The notes: a model not told the origin generated them from the letters alone. A stretch of DNA of 64,000 bases from Methanocella paludicola SANAE (GCF_000011005.1 NC_013665.1:2767501-2831500); one strand, 5' to 3'. Positions 36,911 through 46,474 are shown, counted from the stretch's first letter. Made by a program: numbers and translations.

Positions 36911-38230
36911 TCAAAGCCATCTTCGCAGAGCGTAGCCCGTGCCCGCCATGCACAGGGCGCCCAGGGCCAGGGCGATGGCGAGAGGCACGTACTGCACTTC
37001 AGGGGGGCCGACCACCAGGACGGTGGGGTTGACGGCCAGGGCCGACCACACGGCCTCCACCTGGATGGTACGCGTCTCGGAGACCAGGCGCTGCCCGCCG
37101 TCCTCGTGCACCGCGTAGATCTCGTAGGTGCCGGGGGACAGGGCGAAGGAGAACTGGCCGCTATTCACAGAGGGCGAGACCTCCTGGCTGAGGCCATTAT
37201 TCAGGTAGACAGTTCCCGATATCGGGACGGGGTTGGAGCGGTTCTCGGTGAGGGCGATGATGCCGTAGATGTAGCCATAAGCCGGCTTCGGGTAGTCGAG
37301 GACCTTCACTTCGAGGCCCGCCGTGTCCTCCGCCGGGTAGAACTGCGTGTACGTGGTGAACGTCGAGCCGTTATCCGGTATGTTTATTTTGAGCCTCAGG
37401 AAGTCCGTGCTCACGTTCAGGAGGCCAAAGTCGAACGTGCCGTTAGCGTCTGAGGAAGCGTGGCCCCGGTCCTGGACCAGGTAGTCCTGGGCCGTAATGG
37501 TGGCGCCCTGTACGGGAGCGCCGCTGGCATCCAGGATCCTGCCTGAGAAGCTGAACGTGCCCCCACCGGCCGTGGTGTGGAATATCCGGTCGTAGACGTC
37601 CAACGGCAGTATCGAGGCGTTATCGCTGTAGGGGCTGAGCTCCAGCACGACGGGGACGGCGGCCTCGGACACGTTAATGGCCGTATCGGCGGAGCGGTAT
37701 ACGGTCCCGTTCGAATAGCCGACGGCGTAGAGCGTGTGGGGCCCGGTCGTGGTCGCGAGCGAGAAACGGTTCGCGGTGAACACGTAGACGCCCGAGCCGT
37801 TCTGCCTGGACACATCGTATGGCGTCGAGTCATATATGGTGTCGTTGTCCAGCACGACAAGCGGGTTGCCGGAGCCCATGCCGTCCATCCTGATGGTCCC
37901 AGTCACCTCCCCGACGCGACGCAGCTTTACCTCGATGGTGGAGTTCAACGCCTCGTGCCACACGGAGACGACGTCATAGTCGTCCACCAGCGCCCTTATG
38001 GCGGCGGAGCCGGGGCTGACGTTAAAAATACACGTGCCCGAAATGCCGGTCGTTTCGTTTCCCAGCACGGCGTAGTTGCCGTTCTGGAGGGCGACCTGGA
38101 CGCCAGCGGCGGGGGAGCCGTCCGGGTTGAACACCTTTACTGTAACGGAGATATCCGCGGGGTATGCGGTTGCCGTCGCGGGCGAAAGACAAAGGGCAAG
38201 TAATATCAGTACCGGGGTCAGGCGGCGCAT
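36911..38230 (-). CDS. Secreted, C-terminally anchored multi-Ig-like surface protein
   Basis: A 439-aa protein. Signal peptide (RRLTPVLILLALCLSPATATA), then at least three carboxypeptidase-regulatory/CNA-B-like beta-sandwich units (about 28-105, 108-200 and 225-330), for example VTVKVFNPDGSPAAGVQVAL and GRILDASGAPVQGATITAQD. One C-terminal transmembrane helix (VQYVPLAIALALGALCMAG) and a short basic end anchor it. No enzymatic motif is visible. The start overlaps the end of the upstream membrane regulator gene by 13 nt, so the two are one transcript. The same pairing (membrane regulator then Ig-like surface protein) recurs at 44608-41779. Confidence 0.82.
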   Translation of the reverse strand: MRRLTPVLILLALCLSPATATAYPADISVTVKVFNPDGSPAAGVQVALQNGNYAVLGNETTGISGTCIFNVSPGSAAIRALVDDYDVVSVWHEALNSTIEVKLRRVGEVTGTIRMDGMGSGNPLVVLDNDTIYDSTPYDVSRQNGSGVYVFTANRFSLATTTGPHTLYAVGYSNGTVYRSADTAINVSEAAVPVVLELSPYSDNASILPLDVYDRIFHTTAGGGTFSFSGRILDASGAPVQGATITAQDYLVQDRGHASSDANGTFDFGLLNVSTDFLRLKINIPDNGSTFTTYTQFYPAEDTAGLEVKVLDYPKPAYGYIYGIIALTENRSNPVPISGTVYLNNGLSQEVSPSVNSGQFSFALSPGTYEIYAVHEDGGQRLVSETRTIQVEAVWSALAVNPTVLVVGPPEVQYVPLAIALALGALCMAGTGYALRRWL

Positions 38231-40404
38231 TTCAAGCTCTCCAGCGCCATGGCGACGCGCTCGACGTACTCCTTACGGATGGAGTAGGCGAACCTGCCGC
38301 CGGGCATCGGCTCCTTCATGATGATTTCCTTGGAGGAGAGCTCCTTTATATACTTGCTGATGGTGGACTCGGCGATGTTCAGCTCCCTGGAAAGGTCCAC
38401 GTTGGTGCGCCCGGGCTTCTCGAGCAGCATGCCCAGCACCTTCCGGGTGGGCTCCCGCTTGATGAACGATAGCAGGACCTGCTCTTCCTTGCTGAACGTG
38501 TTGGAGTTCAGGAAGAACCGGACGTACTTATTATCGGCCTTCTGGGAGGTGATGCGGTGATTAATTCCTAATATTAGCACGTGGTACCGGGCCGTGCCCA
38601 GGTTCATGTCTATGCCCCGGGCGATCTCGTACAGCGTCGAGCCGGGGTGCTCGGATATGAACTTTAATACGACGTTGCGGTTCTCGTTCTTGTCGAGCCT
38701 CGACCGTGCCCTCGACACGGCGCCGACCGCGATGAACCGGATGAACAGGTAAGCGATGATCGAGATGGTAAGACCCGTCGCGGGGTCGAACTTAGCGGCG
38801 GAGATCGTGCCGTCCATGGTGCTGTAGAACAGGTTGCCGTTGCCATCGGCCATGGCCGTCACGGGCGAGTCCGTGGAGTACTGCCACTCCTCGCGGCCGC
38901 CGTTAACCGCCGCTACGCCCATGGCGTAGACGCACTGCGACTGTCCTACTACGATGGGATACTCGTAGTTATAATCGGCATAGCTAAGGTAGACCCGGCC
39001 CTCCGAGGGCAGGACGATAACGTCCGACTGCCCGTAGACCCTGGAGGAGAGGCTGCCGTATGGATAGCGCTGCTGGCTGCCGTCCAGGATGTCGCCGGAT
39101 GTGTACGGGCCGAAGATATTCCGGACGCTCGTCTCGTCCAGCGTGATAGTGCTCTTCTTGTAGGTCGGTATGGTGTACGACCATAACGTGGAGGCGTTCC
39201 TCACGTCGTACGCCGTTAGCTTGAGGGAGGCGAGGGCGTCCAGGCTGCTATTGTTCGAGGGCTCGGATGCCACGTAGTAGAGCACGCCGTCCTTTCCGGC
39301 CTTGTATCCCGATGAGTGATATTCGTCGTATGGCACGGGCTCCGACACGGCGGACCCGTCGCCCGACAGGACGTACAGGCTCGAGGCCGACAGGTTGGCG
39401 GAGTTCACGTGCTCCAGGTAGAAGTTACCGTCCGAATCCATCGGCATCAGCTCTAAAAGCTGTGTCGACTCGTTGAGCCTCTTCACCCAGATTACGTTGC
39501 CGCCGGTGTCCATGGCCAGTATGCCGTCCTTCAGGGGCAGGTAGAGGCTGCCGTATTTATAAAGAGGAAGCGAGTCGAACTGTTCCCTGATGTCCTCTCT
39601 CAGGTACTGCCGGATGACCGGCTCGCCGATGTCCCGGGTCCAGAGTAATTTACCGGAAGAGTCGTATGCGTTCACGATGCTTGAGGGCACGCGGTAATCG
39701 TAGGCGCCTCCCTCGAGCACCGGGTCGCTGCTGACCGGCTCGACGGCGTAGATGTTGCCCTTCTCGTCGACCGTGGCCGGGTCCGATACGTTAGAAATGG
39801 TAAAGAGCACGTGCCCGGAGCTGTCTATGACCGTCTCCTGGTAGTCGTGGAACACGTAGACGCGACCGCCCGAGGCGTGTATTGACACGGTATCCAGAGA
39901 AGAGCTTCCGTAAAGGATGAGCTTGCTTTCGAGGGGCACGCTCCATAAGATGATCCCGTCCTTCGAGATGGCGAAGACCTGGGTGAAGTTATTCACCGTG
40001 GCGATCTCGGCCGAAGTAACGGTTATGTTGGGCCGGGCAAGGACGTAGAGCACGCCGTCCGAAGAGGCCACCGTGGGGCTGACCTCCGTATTGCCGGTGA
40101 ACCCGCCCACCAGGATGTCGCCCGTATCCTTGAGCCGGAGCCACTCGCTCGAGATGCTCCAGTTGTCGGGTATGGTCAGGTTCCAGGCGGCGTTGCCATC
40201 GCTGTCGAAGGCGTAGATGCTGTTGCCCGTAAAAGAGTAAAGTATGTCGCCCGAAGCGTACATGTAGCCCGGCTGGTCGTAGGTGGGTGTCGTCCATTTT
40301 ACGGCCGCCGCGGTGGTGCTGGTGCTGATCATGGCGTATATGGCGAACGCCAGGAAAACGATTACCAGCGCTATCACTGCTTCGAAGAGTATACCCTTTT
40401 TCAT
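38218..40404 (-). CDS. Transmembrane one-component regulator: external PQQ-type beta-propeller, two cytoplasmic wHTHs
   Basis: About 728 aa from ATG 40404 (a GTG at 40410 is an alternative). TM1 at about 8-30. Residues 35-540 form repeats like YASGDILYSFTGNSIYAFDS and GNIYAVEP, typical of PQQ/quinoprotein-type beta-propeller blades with Gly-Asn/Ser-Leu-Tyr strands. TM2 at about 546-565 (LTISIIAYLFIRFIAVGAV). The cytoplasmic part has one winged helix at about 575-635 (GSTLYEIARGIDMNLGTARY) and a second at about 650-725 (RTNVDLSRELNIAESTISKY). The topology implies direct signalling from an external ligand to DNA. A paralog is at 42398. No PQQ-enzyme active site is evident. Confidence 0.85.
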   Translation of the reverse strand: MKKGILFEAVIALVIVFLAFAIYAMISTSTTAAAVKWTTPTYDQPGYMYASGDILYSFTGNSIYAFDSDGNAAWNLTIPDNWSISSEWLRLKDTGDILVGGFTGNTEVSPTVASSDGVLYVLARPNITVTSAEIATVNNFTQVFAISKDGIILWSVPLESKLILYGSSSLDTVSIHASGGRVYVFHDYQETVIDSSGHVLFTISNVSDPATVDEKGNIYAVEPVSSDPVLEGGAYDYRVPSSIVNAYDSSGKLLWTRDIGEPVIRQYLREDIREQFDSLPLYKYGSLYLPLKDGILAMDTGGNVIWVKRLNESTQLLELMPMDSDGNFYLEHVNSANLSASSLYVLSGDGSAVSEPVPYDEYHSSGYKAGKDGVLYYVASEPSNNSSLDALASLKLTAYDVRNASTLWSYTIPTYKKSTITLDETSVRNIFGPYTSGDILDGSQQRYPYGSLSSRVYGQSDVIVLPSEGRVYLSYADYNYEYPIVVGQSQCVYAMGVAAVNGGREEWQYSTDSPVTAMADGNGNLFYSTMDGTISAAKFDPATGLTISIIAYLFIRFIAVGAVSRARSRLDKNENRNVVLKFISEHPGSTLYEIARGIDMNLGTARYHVLILGINHRITSQKADNKYVRFFLNSNTFSKEEQVLLSFIKREPTRKVLGMLLEKPGRTNVDLSRELNIAESTISKYIKELSSKEIIMKEPMPGGRFAYSIRKEYVERVAMALESLKCAA

Positions 40405-40427
40405 TGACACACGTTATACTTCTTGGG

Positions 40428-40462
40428 TAGCTTAAATATACTTTCTGTCATAATCGCTAAAG
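40428..40462 (-). promoter_or_regulatory. Promoter of regulator 1 with shared upstream motif (site P1)
   Basis: On the minus strand CTTTAGCGATTATGACAGA (40462-40444) lies directly before the TATA box GTATATTTAAG (about 40442-40432). ATG 40404 and GTG 40410 fall near the expected start site. The motif recurs at P2, P3 and P4. Confidence 0.65.
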
Positions 40463-40567
40463 AAGGCGATAAAAGGCATGCTTCGGGAGTTTATTCTACT
40501 TTTACCTGTCGGTTGGCGCATATCCGCCCTGCGAGTAATTGTATGACCGGCGCACGCGGATTTGCGT

Positions 40568-40600
40568 CTTTAGCGATTATGAGAGAGAGCTTATATGCTC
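40568..40600 (+). promoter_or_regulatory. Promoter of the candidate ncRNA with shared upstream motif (site P2)
   Basis: CTTTAGCGATTATGAGAGA (40568-40586) faces away from P1; the first 15 nt are identical to P1 and inverted. TTATATG at 40591-40597 is the TATA box and predicts a start near 40620. Confidence 0.65.
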
Positions 40601-40619
40601 TACGGCCATAGAGTTGATT

Positions 40620-40722
40620 GTAGCAGGGCCTCGTGCCCTGGAGTTTCGATGGAAACTAGCCCCGTGGCGATACGTGCCGAGTGCAAGGGCACACATCTGA
40701 TCGCCGCAGCCATTTTTTGGGG
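40620..40722 (+). ncRNA. Candidate structured small RNA
   Basis: Downstream of P2 and without a convincing gene. Three perfect stems follow in order: CAGGGC/GCCCTG with a CTCGT loop (40624-40640); AGTTTC/GAAACT with a GATG loop (40642-40657); and GGCGAT/ATCGCC (40666-40671 with 40700-40705) enclosing GTGCC/GGCAC (40674-40678 with 40688-40692). A T6 run at 40713-40718 could end transcription. A 28-codon TTG-started ORF overlaps it but lacks an SD. I recognise no known RNA family. Confidence 0.5.
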
Positions 40723-40762
40723 CTAATTCATCGGAAAATTCGACCACAAGCTGCCTATTAAG

Positions 40763-40800
40763 GGAGGGGCGCGGTCTCCCATGCCTGCGCCCCGCCTCCC
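40763..40800. terminator. GC-rich hairpin between the ncRNA candidate and the 40822 gene
   Basis: GGGAGG-GGCGC pairs with GCGCC-CCGCCTCCC across a short loop, with a small bulge. It lies downstream of the minus-strand gene ending at 40822. No strong T-run follows on either strand, so terminator function is uncertain. Confidence 0.35.
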
Positions 40801-40821
40801 ATGTACTTTTTATTAAAGGGA

Positions 40822-41295
40822 TCATGCCTTTTTTATGCCCATGGCCACGATGAATAGCGCCAGTATGACAGTGGCCAGCGCAGGTGCCGGAGTGCTCGCG
40901 GGAGAGCTGCGGGCGGTAGACGAGGCGGGCCGGCGGTAGTTCTCGAGGCGAGTGTCGGCTAGTGGGATGACCACGTTGCCGCTCGCCTGGTACTGCGTGG
41001 TGAAGTATCCGGCGTTCGTGTAGGTCTGGTGACCGTCGTTATAGAAGGCCCTGATGGTGAAGTAGCTCGTATCGAGGCCCACGTCCGTGAAGGCGAAGCT
41101 GCCCGTGGAGCTGGTCTTTACTGACGATATTTCCGTGCGGTAGCCGTCGAAGAGAGTGACGTCGGCGCCCGGCACGGGGCGGCCGTCGGTGTCGGTCACC
41201 GTGCCCCGGATCGTGCAGGTGCTCGCCGCCGCAGGGACGGCTAACGCTATGGTCAGAAGGAGCACCGCTGACAAAATAAAATAAACCCTACCCAC
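40822..41295 (-). CDS. Secreted single Ig-like domain protein with C-terminal helix
   Basis: A 157-aa protein. Signal peptide (FILSAVLLLTIALAVPAAA), one carboxypeptidase-regulatory-like domain (CTIRGTVTDTDGRPVPGADV, then FAFTDVGLDTSYFTIRAFY), a Ser/Thr/Pro linker, and a C-terminal hydrophobic helix with a KK end (ALATVILALFIVAMG). The end resembles a PGF-CTERM signal in layout but has PAPAL instead of PGF, so it may simply be a membrane anchor. It is related to the 41779 protein (TYFT/NLRVIY strand, VTDxxxxPxPGAxxTL). Between them lies inverted-repeat element F. Confidence 0.78.
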   Translation of the reverse strand: MGRVYFILSAVLLLTIALAVPAAASTCTIRGTVTDTDGRPVPGADVTLFDGYRTEISSVKTSSTGSFAFTDVGLDTSYFTIRAFYNDGHQTYTNAGYFTTQYQASGNVVIPLADTRLENYRRPASSTARSSPASTPAPALATVILALFIVAMGIKKA

Positions 41296-41394
41296 TCGCT
41301 CACCATAAATTCTAATTGTTGTGGAATATATTAAATGCTTCTACTACTAGCTTCTGTAGTTCAGTATTAGTAACATAATCGCTTGCTTTATTTG

Positions 41395-41707
41395 AGGCAC
41401 TAAGCTTACAGAGGCACTATTTCCACCACAATGGCACGGAGTTCACGAAGGCCCACTAAGATTTTTTATAATTTGATGCACAGAGGCCACAAAGCCCGGT
41501 TCATTGTCGTCAAGGCACAAAGGATACAATGGCACAACGAATGAACAAGAGCACTTTTTGCCATCGTGTCATTGTCCCCTTCGTGACTCTTAACCAAAAA
41601 AGCCTTCTCAGTGACCTTAGTGACTCATAATTAAAAGAAAGCTTTGTGAAACTCAGTGAGCTTAGTGCCATTGTGGTTGAAATAGTGCCTCTGTATGCTC
41701 AGTGCCT
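41395..41707. repeat. Long inverted-repeat element F (family 2-like)
   Basis: Arms of about 65 nt pair with roughly 85% identity, starting AGGCACT at 41395 and ending AGTGCCT at 41707; both contain GAGGCACTATTTC and ACCACAATGGCAC. Inner parts share CACAGAGGCCAC and CCCGGTT with elements D and E. The element takes most of the 483-nt gap 41296-41778. No ORF. Confidence 0.82.
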
Positions 41708-41778
41708 TAAAAAATAGGCTATTTGACATAAGGCAATGATCGTGCAAACAAATCAAGAGTAAGCACGGAACTGCTGCG

Positions 41779-42348
41779 CTAGGGCTTCTGCGTCCGCATG
41801 ACGATGAAGCAGGCGAGAGTGGCCACGGCGGCGCCTGCGATGGCGCCTCCGACGAACAGGAGCATGTACACGACGGTGTTGTCGGTCGACTGGGCGGGCT
41901 GCGGGGTCGCCGCCGGCGCCTGGGTGGGGGCCGGCACCGGGGTGGCTGTCGCTCTGGGCTCGGAGCCCGGCATGGTGTAGTCGTCGTAGTGCGTCTTAGC
42001 AGCGTCCAGCCTGATATCTCCCTTCGCGGTCATCGCGGGGATGTAGTATCCCGGAAGCTCGTGCGCCCCGCTCTCGTCGGTATATATGACCCGGAGGTTA
42101 AATACGTTGGACGTCACGCTCACGCCCTCGAACGAGAAGTAGCCCTGGCTGTTCGTGTTCTGGGTGGTTATACGGTTAAAATCGAAGTCGTACAGCGTAA
42201 TGAGGGCCCCTGGAATGGGGTTCCAGTTGGCGTCAGTCACGGTGCCGGAGACGGAGAAGTACTCCCCCTCCACGGCGGAGGCGGGGAGCGCCGCGGAGAG
42301 CAGCATGGCGGCGAAGGCGAGGAGCAAGAGCGTTTTAGCGGAGCGCAT
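41779..42348 (-). CDS. Secreted Ig-like domain protein with C-terminal transmembrane anchor
   Basis: A 189-aa protein. Signal peptide (LLLLAFAAMLLSAALPASA), one carboxypeptidase-regulatory-like domain (YFSVSGTVTDANWNPIPGAL, ITLYDFDFNRITTQNTNSQG), a Pro/Thr/Ala linker (about 130-155), a transmembrane helix (VVYMLLFVGGAIAGAAVATL) and a short basic tail. It lies 49 nt downstream of membrane regulator 2 on the same strand, repeating the arrangement seen with regulator 1. Confidence 0.8.
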   Translation of the reverse strand: MRSAKTLLLLAFAAMLLSAALPASAVEGEYFSVSGTVTDANWNPIPGALITLYDFDFNRITTQNTNSQGYFSFEGVSVTSNVFNLRVIYTDESGAHELPGYYIPAMTAKGDIRLDAAKTHYDDYTMPGSEPRATATPVPAPTQAPAATPQPAQSTDNTVVYMLLFVGGAIAGAAVATLACFIVMRTQKP

Positions 42349-42397
42349 GGGATATCAACGGCCCTCTGATGGCTTACGTCCTATAAATCTTTTTTTA

Positions 42398-44608
42398 TCA
42401 GGCCGTCCGCTCGAGCGCCTTAACGACCAGGCACCTCACGTCGTCCCGGATACGGTAGGACACGCCCCCTGCCTGCCGCCGCTTATCCACGATGCCCCTC
42501 GTGTAAAGCTCCTTCATGTGCTTGCTCATGGCGCTCTCGGGCACTTTTAGCTCCTCGGACAGCTGGACGTTCGACAGCCCGGGCTTTCTCAATAGCGCCT
42601 CCATTACTCTGCGAATGGTGTCCCTCCTCAGGAGAGACATGAGCTGCTGCTCGTCCTTGCTGTAGGAGCCGGCGTTGGGGAAATAGCGGACGAACTTATT
42701 ATCCGCCTTATGGGAGGCGATACGGTGGTTGACGCTTAGGATGAATAAATGATAACGCACGGTGCCTTTGTTGAGCCCCAGGCTGCGGGCGATCTCGTAC
42801 ATCGTGGAGCCGGGGTTAGCGGCGATGTGCTTGAGCACGGCGTTCCGGTTATCGTTCTTGCTGATGGCGCCCCTGGCCCTTGAGACGGCGCCCGCGGCGA
42901 AGAACCGGATGAATACGTATAATACCGCCGCCATGGCAAGGCCTGTGACAACGTCAACGCTGGCCGCGGACATCCGGCCGCTTGCGGTGCTGTAATAGAC
43001 GGTGCCGTTCTTCTCGCACATGGAGCCGATCAGGGAGTCGACCGGCCTCCACCAGAGAAGGTCTCCGCCCGGGCCGAAGGCGTACAGCCCCCCGGCGAAT
43101 GCGGCACGGGATACATTGTAAATGGCCGGCGCCTCGTAGTTGTACGACCAGAACCCCGCGTAGGTCATGTCCCCCACCCGGGCGACCCTGAGCCCGCAGT
43201 CGCCGCACACGCACCGGGGCATAAAGCTGGAATTCAGGGCATTGAATATCTGCGCGTTCCTCGCGTCGTCCCCGGCCAGCAGGCCTTCCACGTTTGAGGC
43301 ATTGAGCGTTACTATGGCCGGCTCCCCGGGCGTGATGCTCTGGCTCCAGATTGTCCTATTACTTTTAAGGTCGATGGCCGTGAGCACGGCGGACTCGAGA
43401 ACTCCGAGCTTCCGCTCGCTTTCCGGATACAGCACGTCCGCTGTGTACGCGATCCCGTCGATCACGCTGGCGTAATCCCGGGAGCCGTCCACGCTGGAGA
43501 TCTCGGCCCCGTCCGGGCTGAGGATGGAGATGCGGGAGCCCTGTATGGGGTACTGGCCCACGAACGAGTAATAGGTCTCGCCCATGAAGGTGTATTCGCT
43601 GAGCGCCGTGCCGGAGTCGAACGTCCTCAGGTAGACGTTCCCGGCGGAATCGAACGGCTGCTGCTCGAATATTGTGGTGGCGACCTCATAGTGCTTGATC
43701 CACCTGACGGTGCCATTCCTATCCAGGGCGGCGATGCCGTTGCCGAGGGGCAGGTAGACCGTGCCATGGTCGTAAAGCGGCACGGTGCCCTTCAGCGTGG
43801 AGGCCGGCTCGCCGACGTCCTCCCGCCAGAATACGGTGCCGTTCGGGTAGATGGCGCTGACGATGCCCGACAGTACCCGCCTGTTAGGGTCAAGCTCGCC
43901 GCTGCGGATGGGCGCAACCGTGTAGACGTATCCCTGTTCGTCCACTGCCGGGGCAGCGCCCGTGTCCCCGATGGTCCACAGCACCCGGCCGTCGCCGTTT
44001 ATAGCTGTCACGTCGCTGCCATGGTACACGTAGACGGTGCCGTTCCTGAAGACGATGTCCGCGTCGTACAGCCCGGTGGAGAGGAGGATGTTCCAAAGGA
44101 TATCGCCATTGGTGGATATCGCGAGCACCCTTTCGTCGAGCGAGCGGGCGAACTCGGTGCCCGCATAGGCATCCATCAGCCGTTTGTTATGGTCGTCCAT
44201 GTCCAGGGTGGAGTCGCCGGCGTACGTGTATGGCAGGCCCCGCTCCATGGCGGCCCGGGTGACGTTGGCCCTCAGGTAGACGTACAGCGTGCCTTCGGGC
44301 GAGATGTCCACGGCCGGCTCGTAGTACTTGCTGCCGGCCCACCACTTATCCGGTATGTCCACGCTCCAGAGCGGCGAGCCGTCGCTCCCGATGGCGCTGA
44401 CGTGGCCGTCCGTGAGCGTCCTGAGCGTGCCGTCCTCGCACGCCGTTAGATAGTAAATGGTGCCGTTGCCCGCCGAGTCCCACTTGACCGTGGCACGGGT
44501 CTCGGTGGTCGTGAAGGCGTAGCCCGTGATCATGAGGTAGAACGAGAATATCAGCAATATGGCCGTCATGGCCAGTACTGACTCGAATAAGGCTCTCTTT
44601 CGTCTCAT
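42398..44608 (-). CDS. Transmembrane one-component regulator 2: external beta-propeller, two cytoplasmic wHTHs
   Basis: A 736-aa paralog of the 38218-40404 protein. ATG 44608 is chosen because GGGAG precedes it; a further 17 in-frame residues upstream overlap the promoter. TM1 about 10-32. Propeller-like blades run to about 540 (GTVYVYHGSDVTAINGDGRV, GTVYLPLGNGIAALDRNGTV). TM2 (VTGLAMAAVLYVFIRFFAAG) is followed by AVSRARGAISKNDNRNAVLK, near-identical in layout to regulator 1, then the two winged helices GSTMYEIARSLGLNKGTVRY and LSNVQLSEELKVPESAMSKH. A CxCxxC motif (CVCGDC) near residue 470 sits in the external domain. Confidence 0.85.
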   Translation of the reverse strand: MRRKRALFESVLAMTAILLIFSFYLMITGYAFTTTETRATVKWDSAGNGTIYYLTACEDGTLRTLTDGHVSAIGSDGSPLWSVDIPDKWWAGSKYYEPAVDISPEGTLYVYLRANVTRAAMERGLPYTYAGDSTLDMDDHNKRLMDAYAGTEFARSLDERVLAISTNGDILWNILLSTGLYDADIVFRNGTVYVYHGSDVTAINGDGRVLWTIGDTGAAPAVDEQGYVYTVAPIRSGELDPNRRVLSGIVSAIYPNGTVFWREDVGEPASTLKGTVPLYDHGTVYLPLGNGIAALDRNGTVRWIKHYEVATTIFEQQPFDSAGNVYLRTFDSGTALSEYTFMGETYYSFVGQYPIQGSRISILSPDGAEISSVDGSRDYASVIDGIAYTADVLYPESERKLGVLESAVLTAIDLKSNRTIWSQSITPGEPAIVTLNASNVEGLLAGDDARNAQIFNALNSSFMPRCVCGDCGLRVARVGDMTYAGFWSYNYEAPAIYNVSRAAFAGGLYAFGPGGDLLWWRPVDSLIGSMCEKNGTVYYSTASGRMSAASVDVVTGLAMAAVLYVFIRFFAAGAVSRARGAISKNDNRNAVLKHIAANPGSTMYEIARSLGLNKGTVRYHLFILSVNHRIASHKADNKFVRYFPNAGSYSKDEQQLMSLLRRDTIRRVMEALLRKPGLSNVQLSEELKVPESAMSKHMKELYTRGIVDKRRQAGGVSYRIRDDVRCLVVKALERTA

Positions 44609-44631
44609 GGGCTCCCACTTATGAAAAAATA

Positions 44632-44665
44632 ATTGGCCCTGTATTATAGCTTCTGTCATAATCTG
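44632..44665 (-). promoter_or_regulatory. Promoter of regulator 2 with shared upstream motif (site P3)
   Basis: On the minus strand CAGATTATGACAGAA (44665-44651) is followed after 2 nt by a TATA box (TATAATAC, about 44648-44641). This copies the P1 arrangement at the paralogous gene. Confidence 0.65.
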
Positions 44666-44686
44666 TTAACCTTGCTTAAGGTTCGT

Positions 44687-44711
44687 CGATCATGAGAGAA
44701 TGGATTTATAA
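44687..44711 (+). promoter_or_regulatory. Promoter of the metalloprotease with shared upstream motif (site P4)
   Basis: CGATCATGAGAGAA (44687-44700) precedes the TATA box ATTTATAAG (44703-44711). It diverges from P3 across 21 nt, so one bound regulator could control both directions. Confidence 0.6.
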
Positions 44712-44740: not shown

Positions 44741-45994
44741 TTGAATGCCGGTCGAAAAATTATCATTGTTTTGATGTTGTGTTCGCTACTGCCTCTCCAG
44801 GCCATGGCGAACGGCGTCGACTATTCTGCGGGATTCGTCCCGGAGGCGCCGAAGGGATTTCAGGCCATATCCGGCCAGGACTTCGAAATCTGCTATGGCC
44901 CGGGGAGCGAGGGCGACATCGACGAGGTGGCGGACGCGGCGAGCGCCGCTTACGCCAGCGTCCATGCCTTCTTCCGGGGAGCGCCCTTCCACCCGACCAT
45001 CATCGTCGCCTCCGCCCACGAGGAGTACGAGGAGATACTGAACGCCGGGAGCCTGCCCGAATACAGCGTGAGCAGCGGGTGGGGGGATGGGAGCAGGAGC
45101 GCCATCGTCATCAAGCGCCCCGATGCGGTGCCTAACTTTCGGGTGGCCATGGCGCACGAGATGGCCCACATCGCCACGAGGAGCTATATCCGGGGATACA
45201 AGTACGCCCTGCCCGAATGGTTCAGCGAGGGCCTGGCCGTCTACGTGTCGGGCGACCTTCCCGGGGCCAAGATGGGCATGGTCGAGGATAACTGTGTGAA
45301 CGGCACGCTGATGTCCATCGACGAGCTCGAGCGGGTCCACCGGCTCTCGGCCACGGATAACGTGACGGCCGACCGGGTGAGCCTGGCCTACATGCAGTCC
45401 GGGCTGCTGGTGAAGTACATCGCCGATAAGTACGGCAACGAGTCGCTGCTTCAAGTCATGGACCATTTCGGGCCGATCGGGGACCTGGACTCGGTCTTCT
45501 CGTCGGTCATCGGGGACACGCCGAACGAAGTTAATTTCCAGTGGCAAAAGGAGCTTAAAAGGGAACTGGACGCCCGGGACGGGCGAATTCTCGAGCAGTC
45601 CGTCCACGGCTATGTGGTCGACCACCATGGCCGCCCCATGGCTAACGAGACAGTATCCTTCACGGCGCTGCGGAACGACTCGCCCGTCCAGGGGACGGTG
45701 TATACGGCCGTGACTGGCGAGGCGGGACAATACTCGGCCAACGTCACGTACGGCCCGCTGAAGGTTGTATCGGAAAAGCCCGAATATGCCGGGTTCAACG
45801 ATACGATAACGGTGGACAGGGGCCGGTCGATGTTCCTGAACGTGACGCTGAACGGGACAGCACTGGAAGAGAGACTGGCCAGGGAGAAGGCGGAGCGGGA
45901 CCGCAGGAACATGATCCTCGGAGGATCCGGGATTGCCATTGTTTGCATAATGGCTGCAGGTTTCGTGTATATCAGACGTAGACGATCCGAATGA
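44741..45994 (+). CDS. Secreted, membrane-anchored zinc metalloprotease (peptidase MA-like) with Ig-like domain
   Basis: A 417-aa protein from TTG 44741, the start that gives a complete signal peptide (KIIIVLMLCSLLPLQAMA). The catalytic HEMAH has His 139, Glu 140 and His 143, with a third ligand likely Glu 163 in EWFSEGLAVY, the gluzincin pattern of the peptidase MA family. A carboxypeptidase-regulatory-like domain follows (about 287-365, VHGYVVDHHGRPMANETVSF), then a transmembrane helix (NMILGGSGIAIVCIMAAGFV) and basic end. It should cut proteins outside the membrane. It is divergent from regulator 2 and shares its promoter motif. Confidence 0.84.
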   Translation: MNAGRKIIIVLMLCSLLPLQAMANGVDYSAGFVPEAPKGFQAISGQDFEICYGPGSEGDIDEVADAASAAYASVHAFFRGAPFHPTIIVASAHEEYEEILNAGSLPEYSVSSGWGDGSRSAIVIKRPDAVPNFRVAMAHEMAHIATRSYIRGYKYALPEWFSEGLAVYVSGDLPGAKMGMVEDNCVNGTLMSIDELERVHRLSATDNVTADRVSLAYMQSGLLVKYIADKYGNESLLQVMDHFGPIGDLDSVFSSVIGDTPNEVNFQWQKELKRELDARDGRILEQSVHGYVVDHHGRPMANETVSFTALRNDSPVQGTVYTAVTGEAGQYSANVTYGPLKVVSEKPEYAGFNDTITVDRGRSMFLNVTLNGTALEERLAREKAERDRRNMILGGSGIAIVCIMAAGFVYIRRRRSE

Positions 45995-46474
45995 TCATTC
46001 GCTTTCGGGGGCCATCTCCTTGCCCTTGACCCCGTACCGGACGCTCACTGCGGTGCCCTTTTTGAACGCCTTCATCTCGGCGGCGCAGAGCAGCGCCTGC
46101 CCTGTTGCCAGCAGGTTATCGTCCTTGTCGACCAGGAGCACCTCTTCCAGGGCCCTGATCTCCGGATCACAATCTAAAACGAACTTGCAAAAAGCAGTTT
46201 TTCCTTTGGCCACGAAGGGGGCGGCATCGTCGTTCATGATGACCCGCTTCTGGGGAAAAGGCAGCGCCTCCTTGAGCTTCTGGCCGCCGTAGGCGCTCAG
46301 AATGAGAAAGCCATCGTTGGCCCGCAGCGTCGCTATGCGCTTATCCCCTTCGAGGACTTGCCGCAGGCGGCCAGTGCGGCCCATGATAAAACGTACGCCG
46401 TTGGGAAACAGCGCGGCCCCGGCGCCCCTCCCGAACTGGTAATCGGCGATGACCCTGACCCTTTCAAGCATCAT
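45995..46474 (-). CDS. PUA domain RNA-binding protein
   Basis: A 159-aa protein. The N-terminal half (RVRVIADYQFGRGAGAALFP, then RFIMGRTGRLRQVLEGDKRI) precedes a PUA domain: KRVIMNDDAAPFVAKGKTAF, EVLLVDKDDNLLATGQALL and FKKGTAVSVRYGVKG. This is the arrangement of archaeal pre-PUA/PUA proteins related to archaeosine transglycosylase. It probably binds tRNA or rRNA; no catalytic domain is present. The 3' end abuts the metalloprotease stop, tail to tail. Confidence 0.82.
   Translation of the reverse strand: MMLERVRVIADYQFGRGAGAALFPNGVRFIMGRTGRLRQVLEGDKRIATLRANDGFLILSAYGGQKLKEALPFPQKRVIMNDDAAPFVAKGKTAFCKFVLDCDPEIRALEEVLLVDKDDNLLATGQALLCAAEMKAFKKGTAVSVRYGVKGKEMAPESE

Follow-up and report, generated by a model that had tools for sequence, protein, structure and literature searches.

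A 64,000-nucleotide stretch of the Methanocella paludicola SANAE genome (GCF_000011005.1, NC_013665.1:2767501-2831500; hereafter the window, with positions counted from its first letter) encodes two predicted membrane-bound transcription regulators, a secreted metalloprotease and a predicted short transcript, each preceded by a TATA box and, just 5' of it, by a copy of one conserved DNA element that we refer to as the box. The promoters concerned are designated P1 to P4. The genes they serve, the core of each element as located in the window sequence, the full boxes and the TATA boxes as read from the sequence are as follows (the P2 transcript is described further below).

38218..40410, minus strand: membrane regulator 1, 730 amino acids (aa), with an N-terminal transmembrane (TM) segment, a BamB-like propeller, a second TM segment and two C-terminal winged helix-turn-helix (wHTH) domains
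42398..44608, minus strand: membrane regulator 2, 736 aa, with the architecture of regulator 1 (Pfam, alignment A1)
44741..45994, plus strand: secreted Peptidase_MA_2 metalloprotease with a CarboxypepD_reg domain (Pfam), target of P4
40456-40444, minus strand: P1 core CGATTATGACAGA
40574-40586, plus strand: P2 core CGATTATGAGAGA
44664-44652, minus strand: P3 core AGATTATGACAGA
44687-44699, plus strand: P4 core CGATCATGAGAGA
40443..40464, minus strand: P1 box TTCTTTAGCGATTATGACAGAA, 5' of membrane regulator 1
40566..40587, plus strand: P2 box GTCTTTAGCGATTATGAGAGAG, 5' of the predicted P2 transcript
44651..44672, minus strand: P3 box AGGTTAACAGATTATGACAGAA, 5' of membrane regulator 2
44679..44700, plus strand: P4 box AGGTTCGTCGATCATGAGAGAA, 5' of the metalloprotease gene
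40433..40440, minus strand: P1 TATA box TATATTTA
40591..40597, plus strand: P2 TATA box TTATATG
44642..44648, minus strand: P3 TATA box TATAATA
44705..44711, plus strand: P4 TATA box TTTATAA

All four sites lie where the first-pass annotation of this DNA had placed them, and in the window sequence a TATA-like box begins 3-7 nt 3' of ...SAGA in each. The identity of P1 and P2 noted there also stands, although the common stretch is 16 nt (TCTTTAGCGATTATGA) rather than 15, and the element proves longer than was described, starting with TTAAC 11 nt 5' of TGA. The refined consensus, RTTAACnGATYRTGASAKAA, comprises 19-20 bases, ends 1-5 nt 5' of the TATA box and contains ~22 bits of information in total; all 57 sites have the T and the A of TGA as well as two A's of ASAKAA. 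Searching the window with the short pattern at up to two mismatches returned 7 matches against 4.05 expected, which is not above chance, and the reality of the sites therefore rests on the longer element and on related promoters. A leave-four-out matrix (22 columns, trained on 53 sites outside the window) recovered exactly P1-P4 as its top four matches in 64 kb, with scores of 28.8 (P3), 23.0 (P1), 21.1 and 18.7 and a fifth match at 13.6, and 100 dinucleotide shuffles gave a mean of 0.02 matches above 18.

The distribution of the box was followed in four genomes of the Methanocellales, namely the window's own (G000; one contig of 2,957,635 bases) and three relatives (G001, G002 and G003), by model searches and inspection of the stretches around the matches; 150 candidates per genome were scored, such that all site counts are lower bounds. 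The exact sequence GATYATGASAGA occurs nine times in the own genome, four copies being P1-P4 and another, at 605396, having a TATA box 5 nt downstream; with one mismatch there are 45 matches versus 9 for the reversed pattern. A sequence-only model of 21 promoters, box plus TATA (R1), assigns 30.8, 20.4, 23.8 and 19.7 bits to P1, P2, P3 and P4, respectively, and gives at least 27, 28, 18 and 25 matches in G000 to G003. Across the four genomes, 42 matches of at least 14 bits were not training sites, where fewer than one would be expected by chance according to rough tool E-values. Nearly all of these new sites are intergenic and have a TATA box directly 3', with a start codon mostly 20-100 nt downstream; 39 of the 42 lie outside any open reading frame (ORF) longer than 150 aa, and of the remaining three, one touches its own gene only where the 5' end has been called too long, and another is genuinely intragenic. 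Because R1 includes the TATA box, a box-only model was also built (R2; 22 columns, 57 sites), which returned 54 matches versus 3 for a column-permuted control. Since ~45 of these 54 had been used in training, the out-of-sample contrast is nine new matches versus three. Of these nine, five are followed directly by a clear TATA box and lie ahead of a gene or in the gap between two, a sixth is weak, and the three with the lowest scores (not above ~10 bits) have no TATA box and fall within or at genes.

In 33 other promoter-like upstream regions of these genomes, no TTAAC, GAT or TGA signal was seen, only mild A-richness at the AKAA position. P1-P4 are members of a larger promoter class, and the box is supported as a cis-regulatory element linked to TATA boxes: it is conserved, it lies at a near-constant distance 5' of the TFB-recognition element (BRE) and TATA box, and it recurs at several promoters, as is characteristic of archaeal regulatory elements that precede the BRE. 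The first-pass annotation had tied the motif to TATA boxes, as opposed to its being frequent and unrelated to them, and this is borne out by the order-wide sites, which mostly have a TATA box directly 3'. The element is restricted to the Methanocellales. In 116 other genomes of the phylum, 15 matches were obtained at E<=0.3 against ~35 expected by chance, the majority of those listed being without a TATA box, and a wider contig scan added only Methanocella sp. PtaU1.Bin125, which is G002.

The association of the box with the membrane regulators extends beyond the window. Each of the three other genomes has homologues of the P3 regulator, whose upstream regions, chosen by protein homology and not by the motif, contain the same element before a TATA box; CCTTAACCGATCTTGAGAGAAGCTATATTTAAA in G003 is one example. 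RPA-like genes and a homologue of the gene at window positions 45995-46474 flank the regulators in G001 and G003 and adjoin them on G002 contigs, and this synteny supports orthology of the locus. Overall, the box precedes 14 of 15 genes for membrane regulators of the BamB-propeller/wHTH family, orthologous and paralogous copies in the three relatives included, as the annotation had anticipated; its GAT part is degenerate at several of them (L038, L049, L053, L087 and L054). The regulators themselves are therefore members of the regulon. Two derivatives also have the element: a deletion in G003 has left the regulator start MKKGILFE joined to the C-terminal tail of a neighbouring CarboxypepD_reg gene (L086:12198-12450, G003:C12), with box and TATA box intact in front of the remnant, and in G001 a box-driven gene (L088:8052-8609) encodes a wHTH-only regulator derivative of 168 aa without the propeller.

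Regulator 1 matches the Pfam domains HTH_24, HTH_HVO_0163_N and PQQ_2. In its AlphaFold2 model (pLDDT 78.9), TM helices at residues 5-30 and 543-560 flank a propeller whose best solved Foldseek matches are BamB, followed by wHTH domains at 575-634 and 641-711. A DNA-binding domain and a TM segment are thus combined in one polypeptide, as Pfam and the model agree, which is the arrangement of a one-component transmembrane regulator. At E<=1e-40 the family is found solely in the four Methanocellales among 148 genomes of the phylum, with 4, 7, 5 and 2 matches in G000 to G003. Its members are only 29-40% identical to regulator 1 (alignment A1). The recognition-helix motif NxGTxRYH of the first wHTH is present in 15 of 15 proteins, and this first wHTH holds nearly all invariant columns of the alignment, which fall within residues 563-652; such a near-invariant helix agrees with one target sequence common to the family. 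The longest ORF of regulator 2 (753 aa) begins at an ATG at 44659, within the P3 box. The true start is probably 44608, in which case the 753-aa call starts inside the box and the automatic start call may be wrong.

In all, the box serves about 20 genes per genome, most of the regulator family being among them, and many of these genes encode cell-surface proteins. The targets include many secreted proteins with CarboxypepD_reg, Big or SpaA domains, RCC1 proteins, DUF4013 and DUF373 proteins, a radical-SAM AmrS-like gene in the own genome, and EarA-like wHTH genes in G001 and G002. By a simple hydropathy rule, hydrophobic N-termini are enriched among the targets (24 of 42, versus 44 of 165 in a background drawn from the fetched stretches; p=0.0004). 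The box is also present at the G003 homologue of the P4 metalloprotease (42% identity), and it is likewise kept in putative orthologues from different genera for a DUF373 protein (68% identity) and a PGF-CTERM surface protein. The proposal that P1-P4 form autoregulated divergent pairs therefore stands as regards self-targeting by the regulator family, but not as regards the pairs: ~16 other promoters of the genome are served and divergence is peculiar to this locus, which indicates a regulon.

EarA-like (PF07381) proteins are expanded in two of the relatives, with 10 copies in G001 and 3 in G002 (loci L246-L258), and about half of these genes have the box. In G001:C1, at ~2018900-2035900, pairs of identical matches at EarA-like and membrane HTH genes lie ~9.3 kb apart, which suggests a recent tandem segmental duplication.

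Which protein reads the box, and to what effect? The box is probably the on/off site of a regulatory network. With moderate confidence, we propose that it is a site where a transcription factor acts on the core promoters of a cell-surface regulon peculiar to the Methanocellales, and the membrane regulators are the best candidate binders. The rationale for this choice is that the family would fit in three respects, namely the same lineage restriction, a near-invariant recognition helix and self-targeting; even so, the chance that this family of tandem-wHTH propeller proteins is the binder is put at about even. In such a mechanism, the propeller would sense something outside the cell, the near-invariant first wHTH would bind the box, and the bound regulator would help TFB and TBP assemble on the adjoining BRE/TATA core, such that, from their place in the membrane, the regulators would govern both the genes that encode them and those for surface proteins. 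That binding aids assembly, i.e. activates, is a proposition we would hold and doubt in equal measure; factors bound just 5' of the BRE in archaea usually activate, as exemplified by Ptr2, EarA, TFB-RF1 and the ara box (PMC5512572, PMC5937170). More tentatively, an expanded propeller-receptor family, with at least seven members in one genome, may converge on a single non-palindromic 20-bp box fused to the BRE that governs their own genes, EarA-like regulators and the surface proteome, in the Methanocellales only.

Several observations weigh against binding by the membrane regulators or against TFB recruitment. The third propeller-wHTH regulator of the own genome (L045, G000:C1:1134194-1136398) has no box, the regulator counts of 4, 7, 5 and 2 do not track the R1 site counts, and related membrane HTH proteins, most of them encoded by genes without the box, have an NxGTxRYH-like helix too. 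Permutation testing for a dyad or a direct repeat within the box found neither (p 0.46 and 0.61), which is unusual for the site of a dimeric wHTH protein. Moreover, the terminal AKAA, which overlaps the expected BRE at short-spacing promoters, looks good and not weak as a BRE, and for this reason recruitment of TFB to a weak BRE gains no specific support.

An alternative hypothesis, possible though somewhat doubtful in our view, is that the box is bound by a different, soluble transcription factor that all four genomes encode, with the membrane and EarA-like regulators as mere targets in a master-regulator cascade. The near-constancy of the box beside regulators that have diverged so far would follow readily from such a cascade, as would the G003 genome, which, with at most two regulator matches, comes close in site number to G001, which has seven such matches; the box-less paralogue and the EarA-like regulators, which are clearly just targets, point the same way. 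Against it, no candidate for the soluble factor was identified, and it is the membrane family that matches the box in lineage restriction and has a common recognition helix. A different question is the direction of control, since the bound factor could be a repressor that blocks TFB/TBP, the regulators keeping their own and the surface genes silent in the absence of a signal. The last four bases of the box fall on the BRE, and both BRE and TATA box look good, so a bound protein could exclude TFB; the CsmR site of Haloferax also lies 5' of the BRE/TATA, yet deletion derepresses motif-bearing genes (PMC13286277). We nevertheless regard repression as unlikely, given that archaeal factors at this position are usually activators (PMC5512572, PMC5937170).

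The remaining explanations carry very little weight. The rigid position over the BRE might be expected if an alternative TFB (or TBP) recognized a variant core promoter, but the element, at ~20 bp, is far longer than a BRE, and each of the four genomes has one TFB gene (two cyclin repeats, single protein), making this reading very improbable. Still less probable is an EarA-type operator. It would occupy the same place relative to the BRE, and EarA-like genes of G001 and G002 have the box, but the known consensus TACATA (PMC10665913) differs from the box, and PF07381 has no match in G000 or G003, both of which are box-rich; proteins confined to G001 and G002 cannot account for binding in all four genomes. 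Chance resemblance or general promoter composition, to which the chance-level result of the short pattern in the window might point, is ruled out for practical purposes by the permuted model, the leave-four-out matrix, the phylum control and the 33 promoters without the motif.

The proposed membrane-regulator system may be compared with several described in other archaea. Transmembrane transcription regulators, among them the one-component activators ArnR and ArnR1 of Sulfolobus (PMC10269533, PMC6396743), likewise combine wHTH and TM segments in one protein, and ArnR/ArnR1 control surface structures through operators just 5' of the BRE/TATA, as is predicted here. However, ArnR has an N-terminal HTH (PMC13286277), whereas in the Methanocella proteins a BamB-like extracellular propeller and two TM helices precede the wHTHs at the C-terminus; the ArnR operator is an inverted repeat, TCGAC-N5-GTCGA, that differs from the box; and only here do the regulator genes have the box themselves. 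EarA of Methanococcus and Pyrococcus (PMC5512572, PMC10665913) also has an operator immediately 5' of the BRE and proposed TFB recruitment, and in two relatives the regulon includes EarA-like genes, but EarA is absent from the own genome and its 6-bp TACATA-type operator is unlike the box. TFB-RF1/TRBM of the Thermococcales (PMC5937170) shares a conserved box at constant BRE/TATA distance and a self-targeting operon; its site is a palindrome (TCTG-N5-CAGA) with a weak BRE and 2 targets, in contrast to a non-palindromic box, a BRE that is not obviously weak and ~20 targets. The UV-responsive A(N)TTTC hexamer of Sulfolobus (PMC5817253) and the ara box are similarly non-palindromic and directly 5' of the BRE, and the hexamer also had a large regulon and an unidentified binder when described, but these sequences are different and much shorter and belong to another lineage and other genes. 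Finally, CsmR of Haloferax volcanii (PMC13286277) resembles the present case in its TATA-adjacent motif at surface (and motility) genes, although that motif is a semi-palindrome, TATCA-N4-TGATA, and differs from the non-palindromic box.

A literature search found no paper on the box motif or on the Methanocella membrane regulators, and the network behind the box seems to be previously undescribed. To our knowledge, few activator or repressor sites are known in archaea, and hardly any of these belong to membrane-tethered regulators of methanogens. The box defines an operator precisely and across the order, with ~20 targets in each genome, and a candidate receptor family can be named for it, such that core-promoter control by a membrane-bound archaeal transcription factor becomes directly testable; because the targets are largely surface proteins, it also offers a route to learning what rice-field methanogens sense outside the cell.

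The product of P2 had been annotated as a candidate small RNA. A structured transcript is indeed predicted, but a short ORF within it is another possible product, so that both a small RNA and a small mRNA are possible readings of the sequence.

40618..40815, plus strand: predicted P2 transcript, 198 nt, a structured RNA with a terminal G+C-rich hairpin followed by a T run
40649..40726, plus strand: 25-codon ORF METSPVAIRAECKGTHLIAAAIFWG inside the P2 transcript, preceded by GGAG, a putative alternative product

The predicted fold of the transcript is far better than those of shuffled sequences (z -3.47). The transcript has no conserved counterpart in the three relatives (blastn, four genomes) and no family in Rfam, and the P2 region has no phage match. 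A strong G+C-rich hairpin at 40760-40810, followed by TTTTTATT, lies between the P2 transcript and the convergent gene at 40822-41295, and could end the transcript of either one. In the intergenic region at 41390-41710, degenerate phrases (cacagaggc..., cactgag...) recur in both orientations and look like a hairpin repeat of the dispersed kind, and similar text occurs in L090 near 2160-2260.

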